Assembly: GCF_000829465.1 (NCBI RefSeq)
Contig: NZ_JXAL01000026.1
Location: 1-64,000 of the forward strand
Length of the DNA: 64,000 nucleotides
Origin: Cohnella kolymensis
GTDB lineage: Bacteria > Bacillota > Bacilli > Paenibacillales > Paenibacillaceae
Reading direction: 5' to 3'
The position numbers and the translations under genes are program-made. Positions 6,839 to 46,071 of the stretch are shown here, piece by piece. How positions within the stretch are numbered: position 1 is the stretch's first letter; every line of letters starts with the position of its first letter. The notes beneath the pieces were generated by a model. The model had not been told where the DNA came from, did not search any database, and saw only the letters and a list, made by a program, of their open reading frames with translations.

Positions 6839-8051
6839 ATGGCGGCTCGCAAGAAATGGGATTTATTATCGATTGCCACAATTCCGCTCACCATGACACT
6901 GGCCAATTCCATGCTGATCCCCATTTACCGGCCATGCAAAAGGCGCTCGGAATTACTCCTTTTCAAGCGAGCTTGATCATAACCTCCTATGCCTTAATTG
7001 CTATCATATTCATCCCTATTGCCGGATACTTGTCAGACCGGTACAGCCGCAAGGCGGTTATGCTTACAGGTCTCCTTCTTGTTTCGGCTGCCGGTGCCTG
7101 GGCCGGCTTCGCAGCATTATGGGCGGAAAATTCGTATCGAACTATTCTTTTGGCCCGTTTGGTTCAAGGCTTAGGTTCGGCCGGCTGCTTTCCCGTCGTA
7201 CTCCCGCTGGTGGGCGATTTGTTCAAAAAGGACGAAGAAGTGAGCAAAGGCTTGGGGTTGGTGGAAACGGCGAACACATTCGGCAAGGTACTGAGCCCGA
7301 TGATCGGCTCCGCTCTTGCGCTTTGGACTTGGTACATACCGTTTTTCGCTATTCCTGTGGTCAGCCTGCTCTCTTTTTTTTATGGTTTTGTTTTTGCTTA
7401 AGACGCCTCCCAAGCAGTCGCAAGAGGTGGAGAACATCAGCCCGAGAAGATTTCTGGTCTCCATTACCGGACTGCTTAAAGCCAAAAAATGGCTGTATGC
7501 GATTTTTGCGATCGGCGGCATTACGATGTTCATCATCTTCTCAAGTCTTTTTTTATTTGTCCGAGCTATTGGAGATCCGAGGGATCAAGCCCATCACCAA
7601 AGGGTTGGTGCTCGCTGTGCCCCTCGCCTGCCTGTGCCTTATTTCGTATTTGGGCGGAAAATGGATCGGCGAAAATAAATTACGCATGAAATGGACCAGC
7701 TTGACCGCAATGGCCGTGACCGCCGTCAGCTTGCTCCTGCTCGGCATGATCGTACCCGACAGCATGATGCTGCTGGTGCTGCTTTTATCCGTGGCCCTTG
7801 CCGGCATCGGCGCCGCTTTGCCCAGTCTCGACGCGCTGATTACCGAAGGCATCGAAAAAAAACAACGAGGTACTGTCACCTCGTTGTACAGCAGTATGCG
7901 TTTCATCGGGGTGGCCATCGGACCGCCGATCGGCGCTTTACTGATGAAGAATTCCATGTCTTTGCCGTTCTACGTAAGTGCAGCAACCGCACTCACCGCG
8001 GCGGTCATTACCGCTTGTGCAATTCGGCCGGGCGCTAGGGAAGCGGGCTGA
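6839..8051 (+). pseudogene. MFS exporter, interrupted by three frameshifts
   Basis: Three frame changes break a 12-helix major facilitator of the drug or siderophore exporter type. The restored protein starts WDLLSIATIPLTMTLANSML, carries the MFS signature GYLSDRYSRKAV after helix 2, and ends FIGVAIGPPIGALLMKNS. Junctions are at the T's of 6924-6926, in T8 at 7374-7381 and in T7 at 7548-7554; one base at each restores about 400 residues. The start ATG at 6839 has AGGAGG upstream. It resembles the bacillibactin exporter YmfD group. Either a decayed gene or indel errors; all three breaks being at T runs favours errors. Confidence 0.8.
7855..7887 (-). terminator. Minus-strand terminator embedded in the MFS coding region
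   Basis: Perfect 10-bp stem ACAACGAGGT (7862-7871) / ACCTCGTTGT (7878-7887), loop ACTGTC, followed on the minus strand by eight T's (A8 at 7855-7862). The only minus-strand unit it can serve is Csp-CopZ-pirin, whose last gene ends at 8054. That unit would run about 170 bases into the convergent MFS gene before stopping. Confidence 0.75.
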
Positions 8052-10895: not shown

Positions 10896-12711
10896 TCAGG
10901 TTCCCGGCACGCGGGCTTCCAACCATATATCTTTAAAATCCATCCAACCGAGCGAATTTAAACCGACACCTTTGACGTTCGGGTGAATATACGTATTTAT
11001 TTTTTTGTGCAGCAGAAACAGTACATGCCCTTCGTCGTAAAGCCGCTTTTCTATCGCGTTCAGCAGCTGCCGGCGTTCATCGGGCCGCTCGGCTGCCAGA
11101 GCGAGGTTAATCTGTTGTTCAGCCCATTGAAGCATCTCAGGATGCAGGCATTCTCTCAAATAGTTCCCTTGCTGGTGGTAGTTCTCGATTTCACACACTT
11201 CATCTTCCGTAAATATGACACTGTACAAAATACAATCCACACTCTTGAGCACGTCAGGCGCTTGAAACGCGTTGCATAAATCGACGCGTACGATGTCTAC
11301 AGCGATTCCGAAATGTGCGCAGCGTTGTTTGATCCACTCCGCATCGGTTATAAAATTCACACATGTGCCTAAGGTCAAGGGCGTGCCGTCGTATTCTCCC
11401 TCTTTGAGCAAAGTCAGCGCTTCATCCGGATCATAGCCGTCATTCAGAAAGGGCGTTTGCTCGGTCGGACGAAATCCGCGAGCCGCATATGCCCGGTCTT
11501 CCCCTAACTGCCGGATCATAGCCTTGCGATGGATGAGCAAGTTAACGGCGCACCGGAATTTTTCCGAGTGTTGAGGTCCGTCTTTGCCTAAGTTCCATGT
11601 CAGCATTGTGCAGCCCTTGTACAGCTGTTCGATTGTTTTCCAATCCTTTGCCGGCTTGTTCCCCATTTGGTTATGGTCCGTAATCAGGTGCTGCCATTTC
11701 GCAGTTTCGGAAGCATCAGCAGTATCCTCCGGCATTGTCGCGATGACCACACGGTCGAGATGAGCCCGCCCCAAATAGTAATCGGTGTGCGCCGCAAGCT
11801 CCAACCGGTCTTCCGTCCATTGAACGATGCGGAACGGTCCCGTCCCCGTCGGATGAGCCCAGAATCGGCTTTCATCCTGATGGTTCAGCTCCTTCGGAAC
11901 GATGGACATGCCGGCAGAACACAAATAGCGGAGAAACAGACGATTAGGCTTGCTTAAAAAAAACGCGAACGATGCGCGGCCCGGGACAGTCTACCCGAAT
12001 CACCGATCGAACCATCCAGCTGTGCAGCTTGTCCCCATTCAGACGTTCCAACGTAAACCGCACATCTTCTGAAGTGAGTTCCCGGCCGTGATGGAAACGA
12101 ACACCTTTGCGCAGATAAAAAGTCCACTCGGTTGCGTCTGCGTTTGAATCCCAAGCATGAGCCAATCCCGGCACATAACGGTTCTCCGAGGTATCATATC
12201 CGACAAGCCGATCGAAAATTTGCCGGATCATCTGCGCCTCAAAAGCATAATTCACCTCGGCAGGGTCGAGTGTCGTGATCGTTCGATAAACCGGAATACG
12301 AAGCATATCCATCTGCGCGCTTCCTTCCGTCTGCTCCGATTCATAACCGAAATGGCCGTTCAACCATTGAACGAAACGCTCTTTGACCGCCGTCCCTTCA
12401 CTGTAGGTTTGGAGAAGCTCAAACGCCTGCTTATATTCGCCTTTCTCCGCCATTTGTTTCGCCCACTCCAACAACAGCGGATCGCGATCCGCCAAGAACT
12501 TAATGCGTGAGCGATTGCCGCGGCCTCGTCCGGCTTGCCATTCGATCAAGCCTTCCTCCACCAGCTTGTGCAGAATGATTTTGACGTTACGTGTCGTACA
12601 GAACAAAGTTCTGGAAAGCTCGTCAATACTCACTTCGGCTTCCGGGCATTTCACCTCGGTGCCGCCGAACGTGTTATGGAGCGTCAAGTATCTTTCAACG
12701 GCAGGATACAT
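10896..12711 (-). pseudogene. SgrR-type regulator with solute-binding domain, frameshifted
   Basis: The first frame (12711-11944) has an N-terminal winged helix (ELSRTLFCTTRNVKIILHKL, about residues 33-52) joined to an SBP_bac_5 (oligopeptide/dipeptide-binding) domain (about residue 145 on). The second (11924-10896) is the rest of that domain. This matches SgrR-family regulators, which are one-component transcription factors with a cytosolic solute-binding sensor. The break is in T8 of the coding strand (A8 at 11956-11963); with seven T's the reading runs VFLSKPNRLF and gives about 604 residues. Start ATG with GGAAGGAGG upstream. Ligand unknown. Confidence 0.8.
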
Positions 12712-25459: not shown

Positions 25460-27780
25460 TTATAAGTAAGGATTGTCGTGCTTCGCCTTAAGCATATTCC
25501 AACGACGTTCGATTTCTCCTTCGAATTCCCGCAGTGTCTCGGCGTACTCCGGCTTCGAAAGATGCTTCGTCTTGCCCATCATTTTCAGCCAATCGCCTAC
25601 GGGCACACGCTTGCCCTTCTCTTCCGGATTGTAGGTGATGGTTGTAATCCCCTTCTCAACCTCATAGAGAGGGAAGAAGCATGTGTTCACCGCTTGGTCG
25701 ATAATGGTCGAGCCGTCCTTGTCCTCCGATAACCAGTTAAGCGGGCAGGTAATGAGGATTTTACCGTATACCATACCTACGTTCTGGGCGTACCATTGCG
25801 CTTTGGCTGCCTTCCTCACCAAATCCTGAGGACTTGCTTCACTTCCCGTGAAAACATAAGGAATGTTCGTTGCGGCCATGATTTGCGCGGTGTCCTTATG
25901 GTGGAACACCTTGCCGCCCTGCTGCTTGCCGACATTAGATGTTGAAGTACGGTGTCCCATCGGGGTCGAATACGACAGCTGAGCTCCGGTGTTCATATAA
26001 CCTTCATTATCGTACTCGAGAATAATCATGCGGTGGTTGCGCAGCGCTGCCCCGATCGCGGGCCCCATCCCGATGTCCATCCCGCCGTCGCCAGTAATCA
26101 TCACGAATGTGAAATCATCCTGCAGTCCGAGATGATCCAGTTCTCCGCGGCGTTTGCGCTCATGGAACATTTCAACGACGCCGGATAATGTAGCCGCACC
26201 GTTCTGGAACAGATTGTGAATATAGGTCGCTTTGTGCGCGGAATACGGATATCCCGTCGTCACGACCATTGCGCAGCCGGTATGGAACAATGCGACGATA
26301 TCTCCCTCTATGCCTTTGAAGAACAATTCCAGCCCTGAGAAAATGCCGCAGCCGGGACACGCTCCGTGACCTGGGGCGATTCGTTTCGGCTTCTTCGTCA
26401 AAGAACGGAGAGGCGGTATGCGGACATTGATCTTGCCCGTTGTTTCATCAGGTGTCACAGTGATCAGTCCGGTTTTCAGATCCTCGTACTTCATCGGCTC
26501 AAGCACTTTCTTAGGAGCTTTGCTTGGATCGCCGGCCGTGTGTCCATGATAGTCGAACGGTTTCTCTACAAACCCTTTTTCCGAAGCATCGATAGCAAAT
26601 TCGAACATTTTCAAACCGTCTTCTGCATAAAAATCTTTACCGCCCAAACCATAAATCCGGCTGATGACCATCGTCGTATGATTTCCGTATGTTTGCAGCG
26701 CAGCCTTGATTTCCAGCACCATATTGCCGCCGTGGCCTCCAAACGAGTCCGACCGGTCTCCGACCGTGACGGCCTTCACGTTCCTCAGCGCCTCTGCGAT
26801 TGCCTTCGCCGGGAACGGACGAATGATATTAGGCGAAATGGAGCCGCTTTAATTCCCTGGGAACGCAGTTGATCGACCACATCTTTAATAATTTCAGCTG
26901 ACGAATTCAGCAAGAATACCGCGACTTCCGCATCCTCCATCCGGTACAGATCAAGAATCGGATAATCTCTTCCGGTCAGTTCGGCGTACTCCTTGCGAAT
27001 CCGGTCGAACACCGCTTCCGCCCGGTACATGGCCATACTTTGCTGATAGCAGTTGTTGATATAATCAGGCTCGTTCATGTACGGCCCGACGGTAATCGGA
27101 TTGTTGCGGTCAAGCACATGCTGGAAGCCTTCAGGCGGATGCTCCCCGACGAACTTCTGCACATCTTCGCGGTGTGCGAAAGTCATCACTCTCCGCTTCT
27201 GGTGACTTGTGAAGTATCCGTCAGACGCCACCAGTACCGGCAAGCGCACGTCCGGATCTTCCGCCAGCTTTAGTGCGATGATGTTCATGTCATATACCGC
27301 TTGCGGATCACGGCACAGCACAATCGGCCATCCCGTATTCAGGGCGAAGTACAGGTCGGAATGATCGCCATGAATATCCAGCGGTCCCGATACCGAGCGG
27401 CATACCAGATTCATGACCATCGGAAATCGCGTCCCCGACTGAACCGGCATTTGCTCCAGCATATACAAATACCCGTTGGCGCTGGTTGCATTAAAGACCC
27501 TGCCCCCGGCCGTGGACGCTCCATAACAGACGCCTGCGGAACCGTGCTCTCCGTCTGCAGGAATCAATACGATATCGTGCTGCCCGTTCGCTTTCATCAA
27601 ATCGAGAAATTGCGCCACTTCCGTTGAAGGCGATATGGGAAAATAACCCATAATATGATAGTTGATCTGGTGAGCGGCGTATGCTGCCATTTCGTTGCCG
27701 GATTCATAGACGATTCGTTGCTCGACGGTGCCGGTCAGTCCCGTTTCTTTGCGAATGTCGATCGACAATGCGGACTCCAC
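25460..27780 (-). pseudogene. 2-oxoacid:ferredoxin oxidoreductase, fused alpha-beta subunit, frameshifted
   Basis: Two frames make one alpha-beta polypeptide of about 773 residues. The alpha part (27780-26785) has AAYAAHQINYHIMGYFPISP and IPADGEHGSAG. The beta part (to 25460) has GHGACPGCGIFSG and the TPP site MITGDGGMDIGMG...DNEGYMNTG; TTGYPYSAHKATYIHNLFQN resembles the PorB signature. The break is near 26841-26847: adding one base restores SISPNIIRPFPAKAIAEAL between the frames, and there is no start with a ribosome site at the junction. The enzyme oxidatively decarboxylates a 2-oxoacid (pyruvate-like by the PorB match) to acyl-CoA and reduced ferredoxin. The start may be a TTG at 27768 (AGGTGGAG upstream) instead of GTG 27780. 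Confidence 0.8.
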
Positions 27781-36343: not shown

Positions 36344-36835
36344 TTATCCGGACACAGTCCGTTCATATACGCAAAAAGCGTAAGGAACCGTGTTCCGATC
36401 ATCTTGAATGCCCGGAACCCGGGATACAAGAGACCAAGCATTGCGGTCGAATTTCGGAAAATACGCATCTCCGTCGAAAGGTTGCCCGATCTCCGTCAGC
36501 ACCAAGCGGTCGGCTGCTCCCATCATTTGCGTATAAATTTCAGCCCCGCCTATCACCATTAACTCTTGGTCCCCGAATTGCGCCAAAGCTTCCGAAATGG
36601 AGCGCACCAGCAGGCAGCCTTCTGGTGCTTGCGACAAATTTCGCGACAAAATGATGTTGATGCGATCTTTCAGGGGCTTGCCCAAAGATTCAAAAGTTTT
36701 GCGTCCCATTAAGACCGGCTTGCCGATCGTTTGCCGCCTGAAAAAAGCCATGTCTGCAGGCAGCTTCCATGGAAGGCCATTATTCGAACCGATGACGCCG
36801 TTCGAGGCGACAGCGGCAATCAAAGTTACGCTCAT
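36344..36835 (-). CDS. folA: Dihydrofolate reductase
   Basis: 163 residues with MSVTLIAAVASNGVIGSNNG, LPWKLPADMAFFRRQTIG, MGRKTFESLGKPL and MVIGGAEIY, the standard DHFR motifs. It reduces dihydrofolate to tetrahydrofolate and recycles what thymidylate synthase oxidises. AAAGGA precedes the ATG. In most Bacillales folA directly follows thyA; here two copper-protein genes sit between them. Confidence 0.92.
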   Translation of the reverse strand: MSVTLIAAVASNGVIGSNNGLPWKLPADMAFFRRQTIGKPVLMGRKTFESLGKPLKDRINIILSRNLSQAPEGCLLVRSISEALAQFGDQELMVIGGAEIYTQMMGAADRLVLTEIGQPFDGDAYFPKFDRNAWSLVSRVPGIQDDRNTVPYAFCVYERTVSG

Positions 36836-36903: not shown

Positions 36904-37860
36904 CTACCCAAGCAGATGTGAACGAATTGTTGCCAATTGCAGCCCCTGGCCTGCACTATAACGTTCTTCGGCTTCGAACATTCGCGTCCCTTTGGGCTCG
37001 TCGGAAAACTGATCGGGCTCGAGCGATACGGAGACATACTCAATCGCCGGTGTCTTCTCCGTGACAGGGATCGTCATGATGCCGATGCCGGAGGCATCAA
37101 CGGTGAACGTGCCTGCGCTGTGGCGTTGGCCCTCGTTCCATACCCATACTTGATATGCCTCTGAGCCTTCCGTTTGAGGTGTGCCGAAGACGTAGACGAC
37201 GAACTGGTCCTGCCGTTCTGAACGTACCAGACAGGCGACACCGTAAGCGCGCGGGTGATCGGTGAACTTACCGGTATCCCTAGATGCCGTCAGATGAAAA
37301 AGCGTCTCGATCTTTGTCGGAGCCGACTGTGCGATTGAAGTGTCATACAAATTCGGTTTGGCAGTCATATTCTGATGCGGACCGCAATAGTAGCTGAACG
37401 TACCCTCATCGTTGAATTTGACGCTTGCGGAGTCATCAAGTGCAAGAAGGCCGGTATCGAACTCTCCGCCGTCTGCGACCGCGGAATGCTTCACTTTATC
37501 ACGATTGATGAACTTGACCGTGCTGCCTTTAGGGACCGTCAGATTAGCCGGGGAAAATGCGAAATCTTTGATTTCCACAACGAACTCCGTTTTCGGCTTG
37601 TCATCCGGTGTCGGTGAAGGCGTGGATGAAGATTTCGAGTCAGAAGGCTCCGGTGCTTTGGACGGTGACGGCGACGGTTTTACAGATGGTTTTGCTGATT
37701 CCGACGGCGTGGCGGACGGTTGTGACGCCGCAGCGGATGGGGACGATCCGTTGCCTTGAGAGGCCGTGTTGTCCATATTATTGGAACCGCACGCGGATAG
37801 CGCCATCAACACCATGGCCAGCATCAGCGCAATTTTCAGTGCTTTTTTCATCTGTCTCAT
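36904..37860 (-). CDS. Lipoprotein with cupredoxin and RskA-like domains
   Basis: 318 residues. A lipoprotein signal (LMALSACGS) puts it on the outer face of the membrane. A Ser/Pro-rich linker (about 26-95) is followed by a cupredoxin domain: IKDFAFSPANLTVPKGSTVK, KHSAVAD (His ligand) and FSYYCGPHQNMTA (Cys, His, Met), a full type-1 copper set. The last 140 residues resemble the extracytoplasmic RskA anti-sigma domain: AYQVWVWNEGQRHSAGTFTV, but without the cytosolic zinc-binding part. The ATG overlaps the stop of the next gene upstream (ATGA), so the two are co-translated. Likely role: copper binding or electron transfer at the cell surface, by inference. Confidence 0.75.
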   Translation of the reverse strand: MRQMKKALKIALMLAMVLMALSACGSNNMDNTASQGNGSSPSAAASQPSATPSESAKPSVKPSPSPSKAPEPSDSKSSSTPSPTPDDKPKTEFVVEIKDFAFSPANLTVPKGSTVKFINRDKVKHSAVADGGEFDTGLLALDDSASVKFNDEGTFSYYCGPHQNMTAKPNLYDTSIAQSAPTKIETLFHLTASRDTGKFTDHPRAYGVACLVRSERQDQFVVYVFGTPQTEGSEAYQVWVWNEGQRHSAGTFTVDASGIGIMTIPVTEKTPAIEYVSVSLEPDQFSDEPKGTRMFEAEERYSAGQGLQLATIRSHLLG

Positions 37861-39496
37861 GGTTTAACCGTAATCGTGCCTTTCATCGATTTGGAGTGTG
37901 GCTCACAGTAATATTCGTAGACTCCTTCTTTGTCGAGAGTGATCGTTGCGGATTTGCCCGTTTCCAGCATTGCTGTCTTAAAAGCACCGTTCACTGCCAC
38001 AGCGTTATGAGACATAAGTTCATCCCGGTTGATGAATTCGATAGCCGTTCCAGGCTTAACCGTGATGTTAGGGATTGTGAAGGCGTAGTTCTTCATCTCA
38101 ATCGTTACTTTCGCAGGAGCAGCCTTGCCGGTCGTGGTGCCGTCAAATTTCGCGGGATCCACGACGAACCATACGTTGTTAACGTTTTGACCCTTCACTT
38201 CCCCGCGGGTAGTGTCCGGTTTGAAGTAATAAAGCGGATAACCCTTGAACGTTGTGAACTTTGTTCCGTCAGCCCTTGTGATCTCACCGAAGTCCGACTT
38301 GTTTAAAGAGCTTGGAACGACGATGGAATCGACGTGGAATGCAGGCCAATTCACCAAGCAATTTCCTTCGCATACGCTGGAGCCCATAGGATCTTTGTCA
38401 AAGTAGTATAGTGTGCGGCCCATGGAATCAACGAGGTAATTGGCCAGCTGGCGAAATTGATCTGTATCCGTACCGATGGTAATGGTATAGAAAGGTTGTT
38501 TCATGAGGTACCAGTTTTTGACGCTTTCCCCTTTGGCATCGCCGGGTTTTTATCGTTTGCAAAATAATATAATGGCCAGCCTTTATATGTCAGCTGTTTA
38601 GCTCCTTCCTTACGTGTAAATACGCCAAAGTCGTCGGCCTTTAACGAGTTGTCGATCAGAAGATTCGCTTCCGAATTAAAGAGCGGCCAAAATTCGATAC
38701 ACTTGCCTTGGCAGGAACTCATGTCGAATACATCCGTTGTAAATAAGTAAAGCGCCATGCCTTTGCCGTCAGTCATATAAAGTGAGCCGTCCGCCAATTT
38801 GCGGATATCAGCGCGTGCACCGTCCAGCACCGCCGCATTATCAGCGGTGACAACCTTCATGTTCACCAGCTCTTTGAGGAGCGTATCGCTGCCGCTTTTC
38901 GGCTTCGTTTGCAGAGTTTCGGTCAATGCAACGGCCAAATCGCGGTTAGTGAACGGCGCAGCTGCTGCTGCACGGAACAGACCTTGGGAGGATGCGAACG
39001 ACAGTGTGTCTTTGTACGCGAAGTCCGATCCGGATTTGAAACGAAGCGATTCGAGCATCACTTTGTACAGCTGCTGCGAGGTAATGGCTGCGTTCGGTTC
39101 GAATTTGCCGCCCGGCGTTCCGTTCCATCCAAGTTCAGGGTGGCTTTTGAGATACGCCAGTACAGGCGCCATCGTTTTGCCCGCAGTGTCTGCGTCGGCG
39201 AAGTTTACCAGTCCGGTGTGGCTGAGTGCTTCCTGCTCTTTGCCCATCAACCGAAGGTATAGAATCGCCGCTTGCATCCGAGTGGACGTTTTGGCCAGAT
39301 AAGCATCCGTAACACCTTGGCCGTCTCCACGCAATACGCCAAGCTTCGTAACGGCTTCTGCGGCTGTCGTCGTTTTAGCCGGACTCACCGTCGCGTTCCC
39401 CACCTGCTGCTCTCCTGCCGCGAGCACGGCTATAGGCGATAACGCCATGACCATCGCCAAGCCTGCAGATAATAACCATTTGCTCCCTTTTCTCAT
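37857..39496 (-). pseudogene. SLH surface protein with Yx(FWY)xxD repeats and cupredoxin, frameshifted
   Basis: Two frames make about 545 residues. Order: signal peptide (MRKGSKWLLSAGLAMVMALS), about three SLH-like modules (to about 215), two COG4315-type units with four Yx(FWY)xxD motifs (YLFTTD, YYFAND, YYFDKD, YYFKPD), each unit carrying SSCQGKCIEFWP- or SVCEGNCLVNWP-like Cys pairs, then a C-terminal cupredoxin (IEFINRDELMSHNAVAV, YEYYCEPHSKSMKG: His, Cys, His, Met). The frame breaks near 38541-38546; one extra G restores NPGDAKGESVKNWYLMKQP. It is co-transcribed with the lipoprotein. SLH modules anchor it to secondary wall polymers. A redox-active surface protein is the best reading. Confidence 0.72.
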
Positions 39497-39584
39497 CCGC
39501 GATCATTTCCCTTCTGAATTTAAGATCTTCACCTAAGCTAACGGGAGCATCCACGATACGGTTTGAAGCAAATTTAAAAATCAA

Positions 39585-39644: not shown

Positions 39645-40439
39645 TTACACGGCTACCGGAGCTTTAATGGCGGGATGATGCTCATAGCCGACAAATTCGA
39701 AATCTTCATAAGTATAGTCGAATATGGAGTCGGGAGTACGCTTGATGAGCAGCGTCGGCAGCGGCAGAGGTTCTCTGGAAAGCTGCAGCTTCACCTGCTC
39801 CAAGTGATTGCTGTAAATGTGAACGTCGCCTCCGGAGAAGATGAATTCACCGGGTTCCAAGCCGCATTGCTGAGCCATCATATGGGTGAGTAAGGAATAG
39901 GATGCGATATTGAACGGCAGACCCAAAAAAGTATCCACCGAACGCATCGTGAGCATACAGGACAGTTTACCGCCGGCCACATAAAACTGGAAAACGAAGT
40001 GGCAAGGCGGCAGCTTCATGCGGTCAATAACGGCAACGTTCCAGGCGCTTACCAGATGCCGCCGCGAATCGGGATTGCGCTTAATCGATTCGACGACCTG
40101 CTGAATCTGATCGATGGTTCCTCCGTCCGGCGTTTCCCATGCGCGCCACTGAGAACCGTAGACAGGACCCAGATCGCCGTTCTCGTCAGCCCATTCATTC
40201 CAGATGGATACTCCGTTTTCTTTCAGGTACTGAATATTGGTATCGCCTCTCAGGAACCAAAGCAGTTCATGGACGACGGATTTAAGATGAATCCTTTTGG
40301 TCGTGACGAGCGGGAATCCTTGGGACAAGTCAAACCTCAGCTGCCGGCCGAATACGGACACTGTGCCCGTGCCGGTGCGATCTTGTTTCACGGTTCCGTT
40401 ATCCAGAACATCCTGCAATAAATCCAAATAATTGCGCAA
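39645..40439 (-). CDS. thyA: Thymidylate synthase ThyA
   Basis: 264 residues from a TTG at 40439, the family's usual length; AAAGGTGTG lies at proper spacing, while a GTG at 40448 abuts the ribosome site. Motifs: [11 protein letters not shown], the catalytic [12 protein letters not shown] (Cys), and [20 protein letters not shown]. It methylates dUMP to dTMP with methylene-tetrahydrofolate, making dihydrofolate for FolA. No anomalies except the distance to folA. Confidence 0.93.
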
Positions 40440-40481
40440 CGAGAACACACCTTTGCCGAAATTTATTTGAAATTTATTGTA

Positions 40482-42560: not shown

Positions 42561-43900
42561 TTACACCTCCATGACTAGCAGCTCAGGATCGCTGAGCAGC
42601 TGTTTAATGTAATTCAAGAAATTTTGCGCCGTTGCGCCGTCGATAATGCGGTGGTCAAAGCTGAGCGACAAGGCCATCACAGGCGCGATAACGATTTCGC
42701 CGTTCTTCACGACCGCTTTTTCTGAAATACGTCCTGTTCCGAGGATGGCGACTTCCGGGAAGTTGATGACCGGAGTAAAGAACATGCCGCCGGCGGAACC
42801 GATATTCGTAATTGTAATCGTGCTGCCTTTAATCTCGTTCGGAGCAAGCTTCCCATCCCGGCCGCGTGTTGCGAGGTCGCGGATTTCATTCGCGATGCTC
42901 CATACATTTTTGCGGTCGGCGTCGAACACGACGGGTACAAGCAGTCCGTTATCCGTATCGGTTGCAATCCCGATGTTGTAGTACTTTTTGTAGACGATCT
43001 CGTTGGCCGCTTCGTCGATCATCGCATTCAAAGCCGGGAATTCGCGGCACGCCGCAACAAGGGCTTTGACGATGAACGGCAGATACGTCAGCTTGACGCC
43101 TTTTTTCTCAGCAACCGGTTTAGCCCGCGTACGTAAAGCGACGAGCCCGGTTACATCGACTTCGTCCATCAATGTAACGTGAGGAGCGGTGTAGACGGAT
43201 TTGACCATCGCGTTCGCAATCGCCTTGCGGATTCCCTTGAACGGAACGCGCTCTTCCGTTCCGCCTGCTCCTGCGGTTACAACCGCTGCTGCTGCAGGAG
43301 CACGCGCCGGCCATCTGTGCCGGTGCTGCCGCTGGTGCGGCGCCGCCGGCAGTAAATCCGAGTACATCGTCGCGTGTAATCCGTCCGTTTCTTGCCGGTG
43401 CCGGCTACTTCGCTGATGTTGACGCCTTTCTCACGAGCAAGTTTGCGGATGCTTGGGGTCGCAAGTACCATGCCGCCCGCAGGAGCCGCTGCCGTAGTTG
43501 CCGCCGGTGCAGGTGCTGCAGCCGCAGGCGCGTTTTCCTTGGCAGGCTGCTGCGCAGGCTGGTCCTTCGTTTCGGCGCCGCCGACGGCAGCATTGCCGGA
43601 AGCTCCGCCGGCCGCTTGACCATGACTTTCCGCCGCAGGTGCCTGTTCGGGAATTTCACCCTCCGCTTCAATGATGGCAACAACTTCGCCGACACGCATG
43701 ACTTGTCCGTCTTTGGCCATCACTTCAAGTACCTTGCCGTTTACAGGGCAAGGTACTTCCACGATCGCCTTGTCGTTCTGAACTTCCATGACGATATCTT
43801 CGTCCGTTACTGTCTGGCCCGGTGCGATGTGCATTTTGACGATTTCGCCTTCATGCAGCCCTTCGCCCAGCTCCGGGAACCGATATTCAAATCTGGCCAC
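42561..43900 (-). pseudogene. pdhC: Dihydrolipoamide acetyltransferase (PDH E2), two frameshifts
   Basis: Restored length about 445 residues, normal for Gram-positive E2. Lipoyl domain with VQNDKAIVEVP (lipoyl-Lys), an Ala/Pro-rich linker, the E1/E3-binding domain [20 protein letters not shown], and the catalytic domain ending [16 protein letters not shown] (HRxxxDG). Frame breaks are at the AAA (coding) at 43388-43390 and near 43300-43306; removing one base at each gives [20 protein letters not shown] and a continuous linker. GTG start with GGAGGAGG. E2 is needed for the complex and its neighbours are otherwise whole, so true loss is unlikely. Confidence 0.85.
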
Positions 43901-43917
43901 GTGTCATCCTCCTCCGT

Positions 43918-46071
<2,154 letters not shown>

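Follow-up and report, generated by a model that had tools for sequence, protein, structure and literature searches.

We analysed the region between thyA and folA in a 64,000-nucleotide stretch of DNA from the soil bacterium Cohnella kolymensis (contig NZ_JXAL01000026.1; hereafter the window, to which all positions refer unless another contig is named). A preliminary description had read this region as a surface copper module in which an S-layer homology (SLH)-anchored cupredoxin protein is paired with a cupredoxin-RskA lipoprotein. The thyA-folA interval contained three open reading frames (ORFs), all on the minus strand: ORF A (38501-39496, 331 residues), the 5′ part of a surface protein gene; ORF B (37857-38504, 215 residues), the 3′ part of this gene, with a second COG4315 domain and a cupredoxin; and ORF C (36904-37860, 318 residues), which joins a cupredoxin lipoprotein (5′) to the region of an anti-sigma factor that lies outside the cytoplasm (3′). 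The slot was flanked upstream by thyA (39645-40448, minus strand) and downstream by folA (36344-36835, minus strand), which encodes dihydrofolate reductase. Pfam domains over cut-off were Lipoprotein_15 in ORF A, Lipoprotein_15 and Copper-bind in ORF B, and Copper-bind and RskA_C in ORF C; PepX_N in ORF A barely exceeded its own cut-off (26.3 vs 25 bits).

The two halves of an intact relative (P0002) matched the window DNA in separate frames, at 38516-39499 and 37863-38567, so that the frame break lies in the stretch 38516-38567 (minus strand). Among the matches listed, close relatives of ORFs A and B were mostly single proteins of ~520-565 residues with Lipoprotein_15 and cupredoxin, and the earlier restoration of the two ORFs as one protein (~540 residues in relatives) was borne out. 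The relatives described here are the best 120 of 346 matches to ORF A, and the close ones listed with organism names belonged to Cohnella or Paenibacillus. Long surface-protein matches (best matches below 1e-100) were detected in 20 of 37 genus genomes, and, across the family, 53 of the 197 Paenibacillaceae genomes sampled had a match to the surface protein (E <= 1e-40). In the family sample, the genome studied here (G000) alone had the halves in frames of unequal length (333 and 230). Eight other family genomes gave two-row matches with one frame length for both rows, one (G356) gave a match covering residues 264-548 alone, and a single stop was present inside the match in three (G008, G255 and G406). 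Since the other family genomes with a match do not show it, the two-frame split is, as judged from these alignments, particular to this genome. The possibility that ORFs A and B are two designed overlapping genes was rejected: close relatives have one protein, and the split was seen in none of the 52 other matching genomes.

The surface protein begins with a signal peptide, judged by eye, and its first COG4315 domain (in ORF A) contains a CxxxC motif. PF03640 (Lipoprotein_15) scored 64.1 bits in ORF A and 80.8 bits in ORF B (cut-off 24.4) and was over cut-off in all 29 relatives; this family appears in a table of modelled repeat families for which a known structure was wanting (PMC8078820). 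The lipoprotein family named after SCO0930 (NF040526, cut-off 275) was missed by ORF A (63 bits), ORF B (97.5) and intact P0002 (169). The cupredoxin domain of the surface protein (37863-38126, minus strand) scored 54.6 bits with Copper-bind (cut-off 21.2) and reached profile position 99 of 99; its PDB matches included amicyanin, and a fold search with the whole P0002 model retrieved cupredoxin-type domain proteins among its best 50 matches. Counts across the window ORFs agreed with the motifs reported earlier: Yx(FWY)xxD occurred four times, and CxxxC pairs and copper ligand sets twice each. A full H, C, H, M ligand set was present by motif in both ORF B and ORF C, and copper binding is predicted for each. 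Cysteines were located at A262, A266, B45, B49, B200, C24, C159 and C210 (letters denote the ORF); none of them forms a heme-binding CxxCH motif in ORFs A, B or C, and a heme conduit was rejected on this ground. In a phylum-wide Bacillota sample Lipoprotein_15 was rare, occurring in 2 of 199 genomes including G000, and it was found in 0 of 14 control genomes.

A candidate cell-wall anchor occupies residues 41-215 of ORF A (38852-39376, minus strand). The fold comparison covered these residues, and the predicted model matched solved SLH domains, with a three-repeat spindle fold that ORF A would share with SpaA-SLH of Paenibacillus alvei (6cwc, 7sv4). The SLH modules proposed earlier are thus supported by predicted fold and not by the Pfam profile. 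The pyruvate-binding residues of SpaA-SLH are given as Arg61, Gly109 and Lys130 (PMC6081394); R39, G92 and K111 of the present family, invariant in 28 of 28 sequences, were fitted to them by motif spacing and not by residue-level superposition. The features looked for were the Arg of TRAE, SLH-Gly29 and the pocket Lys that serve pyruvylated wall polymer. Compared with SpaA-SLH, the ORF A domain has diverged to below the Pfam SLH cut-off, and the Arg of the third repeat is replaced by an Asn that is invariant in the 28 sequences. Matches to the SLH profile at E<=1 were obtained for 8 of 29 relatives (best 0.031), and an SLH profile search of the own genome (E<=0.001) did not include the ORF A site.

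The cupredoxin domain of ORF C (37363-37602, minus strand) scored 39.5 bits with Copper-bind (cut-off 21.2), so that the cupredoxin assignment held by profile search for both ORFs; the match ended at position 90 of 99, the final stretch of the profile being missing, whereas gene 2 of a related locus (L029, in genome G010) reached 99 of 99. It is followed by an RskA_C remnant of an anti-sigma factor (36907-37362, minus strand), 92% identical to residues 119-270 of the database protein P0122. A search with ORF C gave 61 matches, comprising its own copy (P0121), anti-sigma factors of 214-311 residues that matched the 3′ part (P0122 was 93% identical over it) and separate cupredoxin proteins that matched the 5′ part. 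By precomputed Pfam assignments, cupredoxin and RskA_C occurred together only in P0121, which comes from the window's own contig. P0122 has zf-HC2 and RskA_C, with a membrane helix judged by eye; in ORF C both the HxxxCxxC motif and the transmembrane helix were absent and only anti-sigma residues 119-270 were kept, as the earlier remark on an RskA-like domain without its zinc part had it. In G010, the sites matching ORF C residues 173 and 179 are ~1,020 bp apart, and therefore ~1.0 kb is missing in the window, namely the end of the cupredoxin, the sigma factor gene and anti-sigma residues 1-118 (the zinc motif and the by-eye membrane helix). No close sigma gene was found in the thyA-folA slot or elsewhere in the own genome (best row 31% identity), which rejected its relocation, and no second anti-sigma copy was found in this genome. 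All domains named in the preliminary description are present, including Copper-bind and RskA_C in the lipoprotein partner, but the halves of that partner are separate proteins in relatives, and it most likely arose as a fusion through a deletion (or in assembly), a scar and not a design. By comparison with these relatives, the normal form of the second copper protein is a lipoprotein on its own, and RskA_C is part of an anti-sigma factor that would regulate a sigma factor. This regulatory half had been missed because it is absent in the window.

A scan of named genomes detected 100 loci encoding a relative of the surface protein, of which 80 were kept; the scan patterns were drawn from the SLH-fold part, and therefore proteins without that part would be missed. 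Two loci (L029 in G010 and L030 in G009) had, on one strand, the order thyA, surface protein, cupredoxin lipoprotein, extracytoplasmic function (ECF) sigma factor, anti-sigma factor and folA, and both thyA and folA were visible in 10 of the 80 loci. Sigma and anti-sigma genes were present in 78 of 80 loci (divergent in L080), and all 78 anti-sigma factors had the HxxxCxxC zinc motif. The two loci without a local pair (L054 and L089) had a related anti-sigma factor at another place in their genomes (41 and 44% identity; this search covered the anti-sigma factor alone). The neighbourhood is thus conserved in Paenibacillaceae, as the preliminary description anticipated, but the fusion itself is confined to P0121 among the 61 ORF C matches. 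A gene for a cupredoxin lipoprotein was detected in 41 of the 80 loci, and in 40 of these its ligand set was complete by motif; 60 of the 80 surface proteins carried a cupredoxin motif, and in 18 loci no cupredoxin was found in either protein. Because of this distribution, the constant core is the COG4315 protein with its sigma and anti-sigma factors, copper is an add-on, and the idea of copper as a constant feature has to be given up. In fourteen of the 80 loci (among L097-L115) the surface protein had six Yx(FWY)xxD motifs and no cupredoxin motif, with the same sigma/anti-sigma pair adjoining. Among the open PMC papers listed by literature searches, none was recognised as describing this operon.

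An ECF-type promoter, TCAAACC-N16-CGTTAGCT (39536-39566, minus strand), was identified by pattern match in the own genome 40-70 bp before the ORF A start; the window therefore retains the promoter without the sigma gene. All 75 anchored loci carried AACC-N16-CGT[T/A] ahead of the surface protein gene, whereas shuffled controls gave a mean of 0.89 with a maximum of 5 and the reverse strand gave 2; the anchored set was the 80 loci minus L048, L054, L104, L114 and L118, which had no anchor. A stricter AAACC form was found in 68 of these 75 (shuffled mean 0.27, reverse strand 0). Across the 37 genus genomes, a strict pattern derived from the same operon promoters that it then finds gave 18 sites, 17 of them directly before the surface protein gene (reversed control 1), suggesting one sigma factor that serves essentially one promoter, its own. 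The sole extra site was in G000 itself (C34:105062-105092). This perfect copy of the strict promoter is followed by genes for a secreted 147-residue orphan, found in 1 of 37 genus genomes, and DoxX (L180 4063-5116, corresponding to G000:C34:105062-106115).

Our preferred explanation, with a probability of about 0.65, is that the window carries, in damaged form, an ECF operon that is conserved in Paenibacillaceae (Cohnella/Paenibacillus) and regulates itself; the anatomy as described is very probably correct. In the intact order, the ECF promoter would be followed by genes for the surface protein (SLH-fold anchor, two COG4315 domains, cupredoxin), the cupredoxin lipoprotein, the ECF sigma factor and a membrane anti-sigma factor with its HxxxCxxC zinc motif inside the cell and RskA_C outside. 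The anti-sigma factor would hold the sigma factor until an envelope signal (redox, copper or thiol state) is sensed outside; the freed sigma factor would then fire essentially its own promoter alone, yielding more of the wall-anchored thiol/copper protein and of the copper lipoprotein, and both products may serve at the cell surface to pass on or buffer copper or redox equivalents. In the window, a frame break interrupts the surface protein gene as assembled, and a ~1.0 kb deletion would have taken out the sigma gene together with those portions of the anti-sigma factor that lie in the cytosol and the membrane, so that the lipoprotein became joined to RskA_C. The operon is most likely an envelope redox/copper module, with the copper lipoprotein in about half of the loci, although our confidence in a redox or copper role as such is somewhat below even. 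It is conceivable, and distinctly more speculative, that it forms an envelope redox circuit around a single-promoter sigma factor, with a wall-anchored COG4315 thiol protein as its main product. This protein or the copper lipoprotein would report the redox or copper state of the wall to the outer RskA_C, closing a homeostatic loop; copper modules would have been gained and lost and, in copper lineages, would provide a heme-free electron path across the Gram-positive wall.

Several observations weigh against this explanation. The SLH profile (PF00395) reached 14.8 bits in ORF A, below the Pfam cut-off of 20.8, and when a profile made from this domain was compared with solved sequences, no SLH chain was retrieved; the two matches were to a PepX chain (E 0.0026) and to an unrelated peptidase (E 1.7). 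The 18 loci without any cupredoxin weaken a copper-centred function. The ~1.0 kb deletion could be a misassembly, and two intact promoter copies without a sigma gene fit recent loss or an assembly artefact. No anti-sigma factor tied to the source of P0002 was among the ORF C matches listed, and a shared loss there may have occurred. Finally, the signal, copper loading, sigma-promoter pairing and function are what we infer from an anatomy, operon conservation, promoter, SLH fold and lesions (as assembled) that were read from sequence or predicted fold.

The strongest alternative, rather less likely than not, is that both lesions, the deletion and the frame break, arose as errors of assembly or sequencing and that the living strain has an intact operon. 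Consistent with this, both promoter sites in the genome are intact, and a relative in the database, 92-93% identical over the part in common, has a complete anti-sigma factor. Conserved genes nearby are also frame-faulty: among the pyruvate dehydrogenase genes (42561-46029), the E2 gene (pdhC) is split over two frames and E1 alpha and E1 beta (pdhA and pdhB) lie in one ORF, which reflects sequence error or decay in this genome, and therefore sequence error becomes likelier for the break between ORFs A and B. However, a clean in-frame loss of 1.0 kb is atypical of indel error, the genome is rated 100% complete (34 contigs), and no missing sigma or anti-sigma piece turned up elsewhere in it.

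It is unlikely that the intact operon is a copper defence or acquisition system with a copper-responsive sigma factor. The frequency of cupredoxins in the surface proteins and of lipoproteins with full ligand sets would suit such a system, but the same core operon exists without a cupredoxin in 18 of 80 loci. CorE is a copper-sensing sigma factor with a C-terminal extension (PMC8999054); the L029 sigma factor has no cysteine and is thus unlike the CorE build, and a CorE-like copper sigma factor was rejected. A purpose-built two-site relay, in which the membrane cupredoxin-RskA lipoprotein passes electrons or copper to the SLH-anchored cupredoxin protein, is highly improbable: both ligand sets are present, the SLH fold is supported by the predicted model and a lipoprotein anchor with RskA_C outside is topologically consistent, but only P0121 among the 61 matches joins the two domains, the profile match of the fused cupredoxin stops short of the end, and the lipoprotein gene was not found in 39 of 80 loci.

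Among the closest known systems are pairs of an ECF sigma factor and an RskA-type anti-sigma factor, namely SigK-RskA and SigU-RsuA of S. coelicolor. Pairs of this type combine an ECF sigma factor with a zinc-motif anti-sigma factor ending in RskA_C, as does the operon of the relatives; here, unlike in such pairs, a single operon holds sigma factor, anti-sigma factor and target, the strict promoter is almost confined to this operon, and in the window the sigma gene is missing. The L029 sigma factor scored 111 bits with the NCBIfam SigK model, whose cut-off is 226. SCO0930 is listed among secreted proteins of the S. coelicolor SigU regulon (PMC6295645), and it is the namesake of NF040526, a COG4315-like family that the surface protein resembles under cut-off. 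PF03640 repeats over cut-off are shared by COG4315 and NF040526 lipoproteins and the surface protein, but the latter adds the SLH-fold anchor and a cupredoxin. Another comparison involved OmhA, an undecaheme S-layer cytochrome of Carboxydothermus ferrireducens (6qvm), whose example indicates that a redox protein with an SLH fold can exist at the surface (PMC12203936); OmhA carries hemes, whereas the window proteins have predicted copper sites and CxxxC motifs.

Lipoprotein_15 (PF03640, COG4315), a 'secreted repeat of unknown function' according to Pfam, is here the constant cargo of a sigma operon of the ECF type whose promoter can be recognised, a context in which its function can be tested by induction and knockout in intact species. 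That copper domains are gained and lost while the regulatory core stays fixed suggests a modular redox device at the surface, encoded by a gene set that is widespread yet little-studied. The fused protein in the window is a warning, as it is most likely a scar and not a new system. Elsewhere in the window, genes for a ferredoxin oxidoreductase alpha subunit (25460-27780), an SgrR-like protein (10896-12711) and a major facilitator superfamily transporter (6856-8051) also appeared, by eye, to be split between frames.
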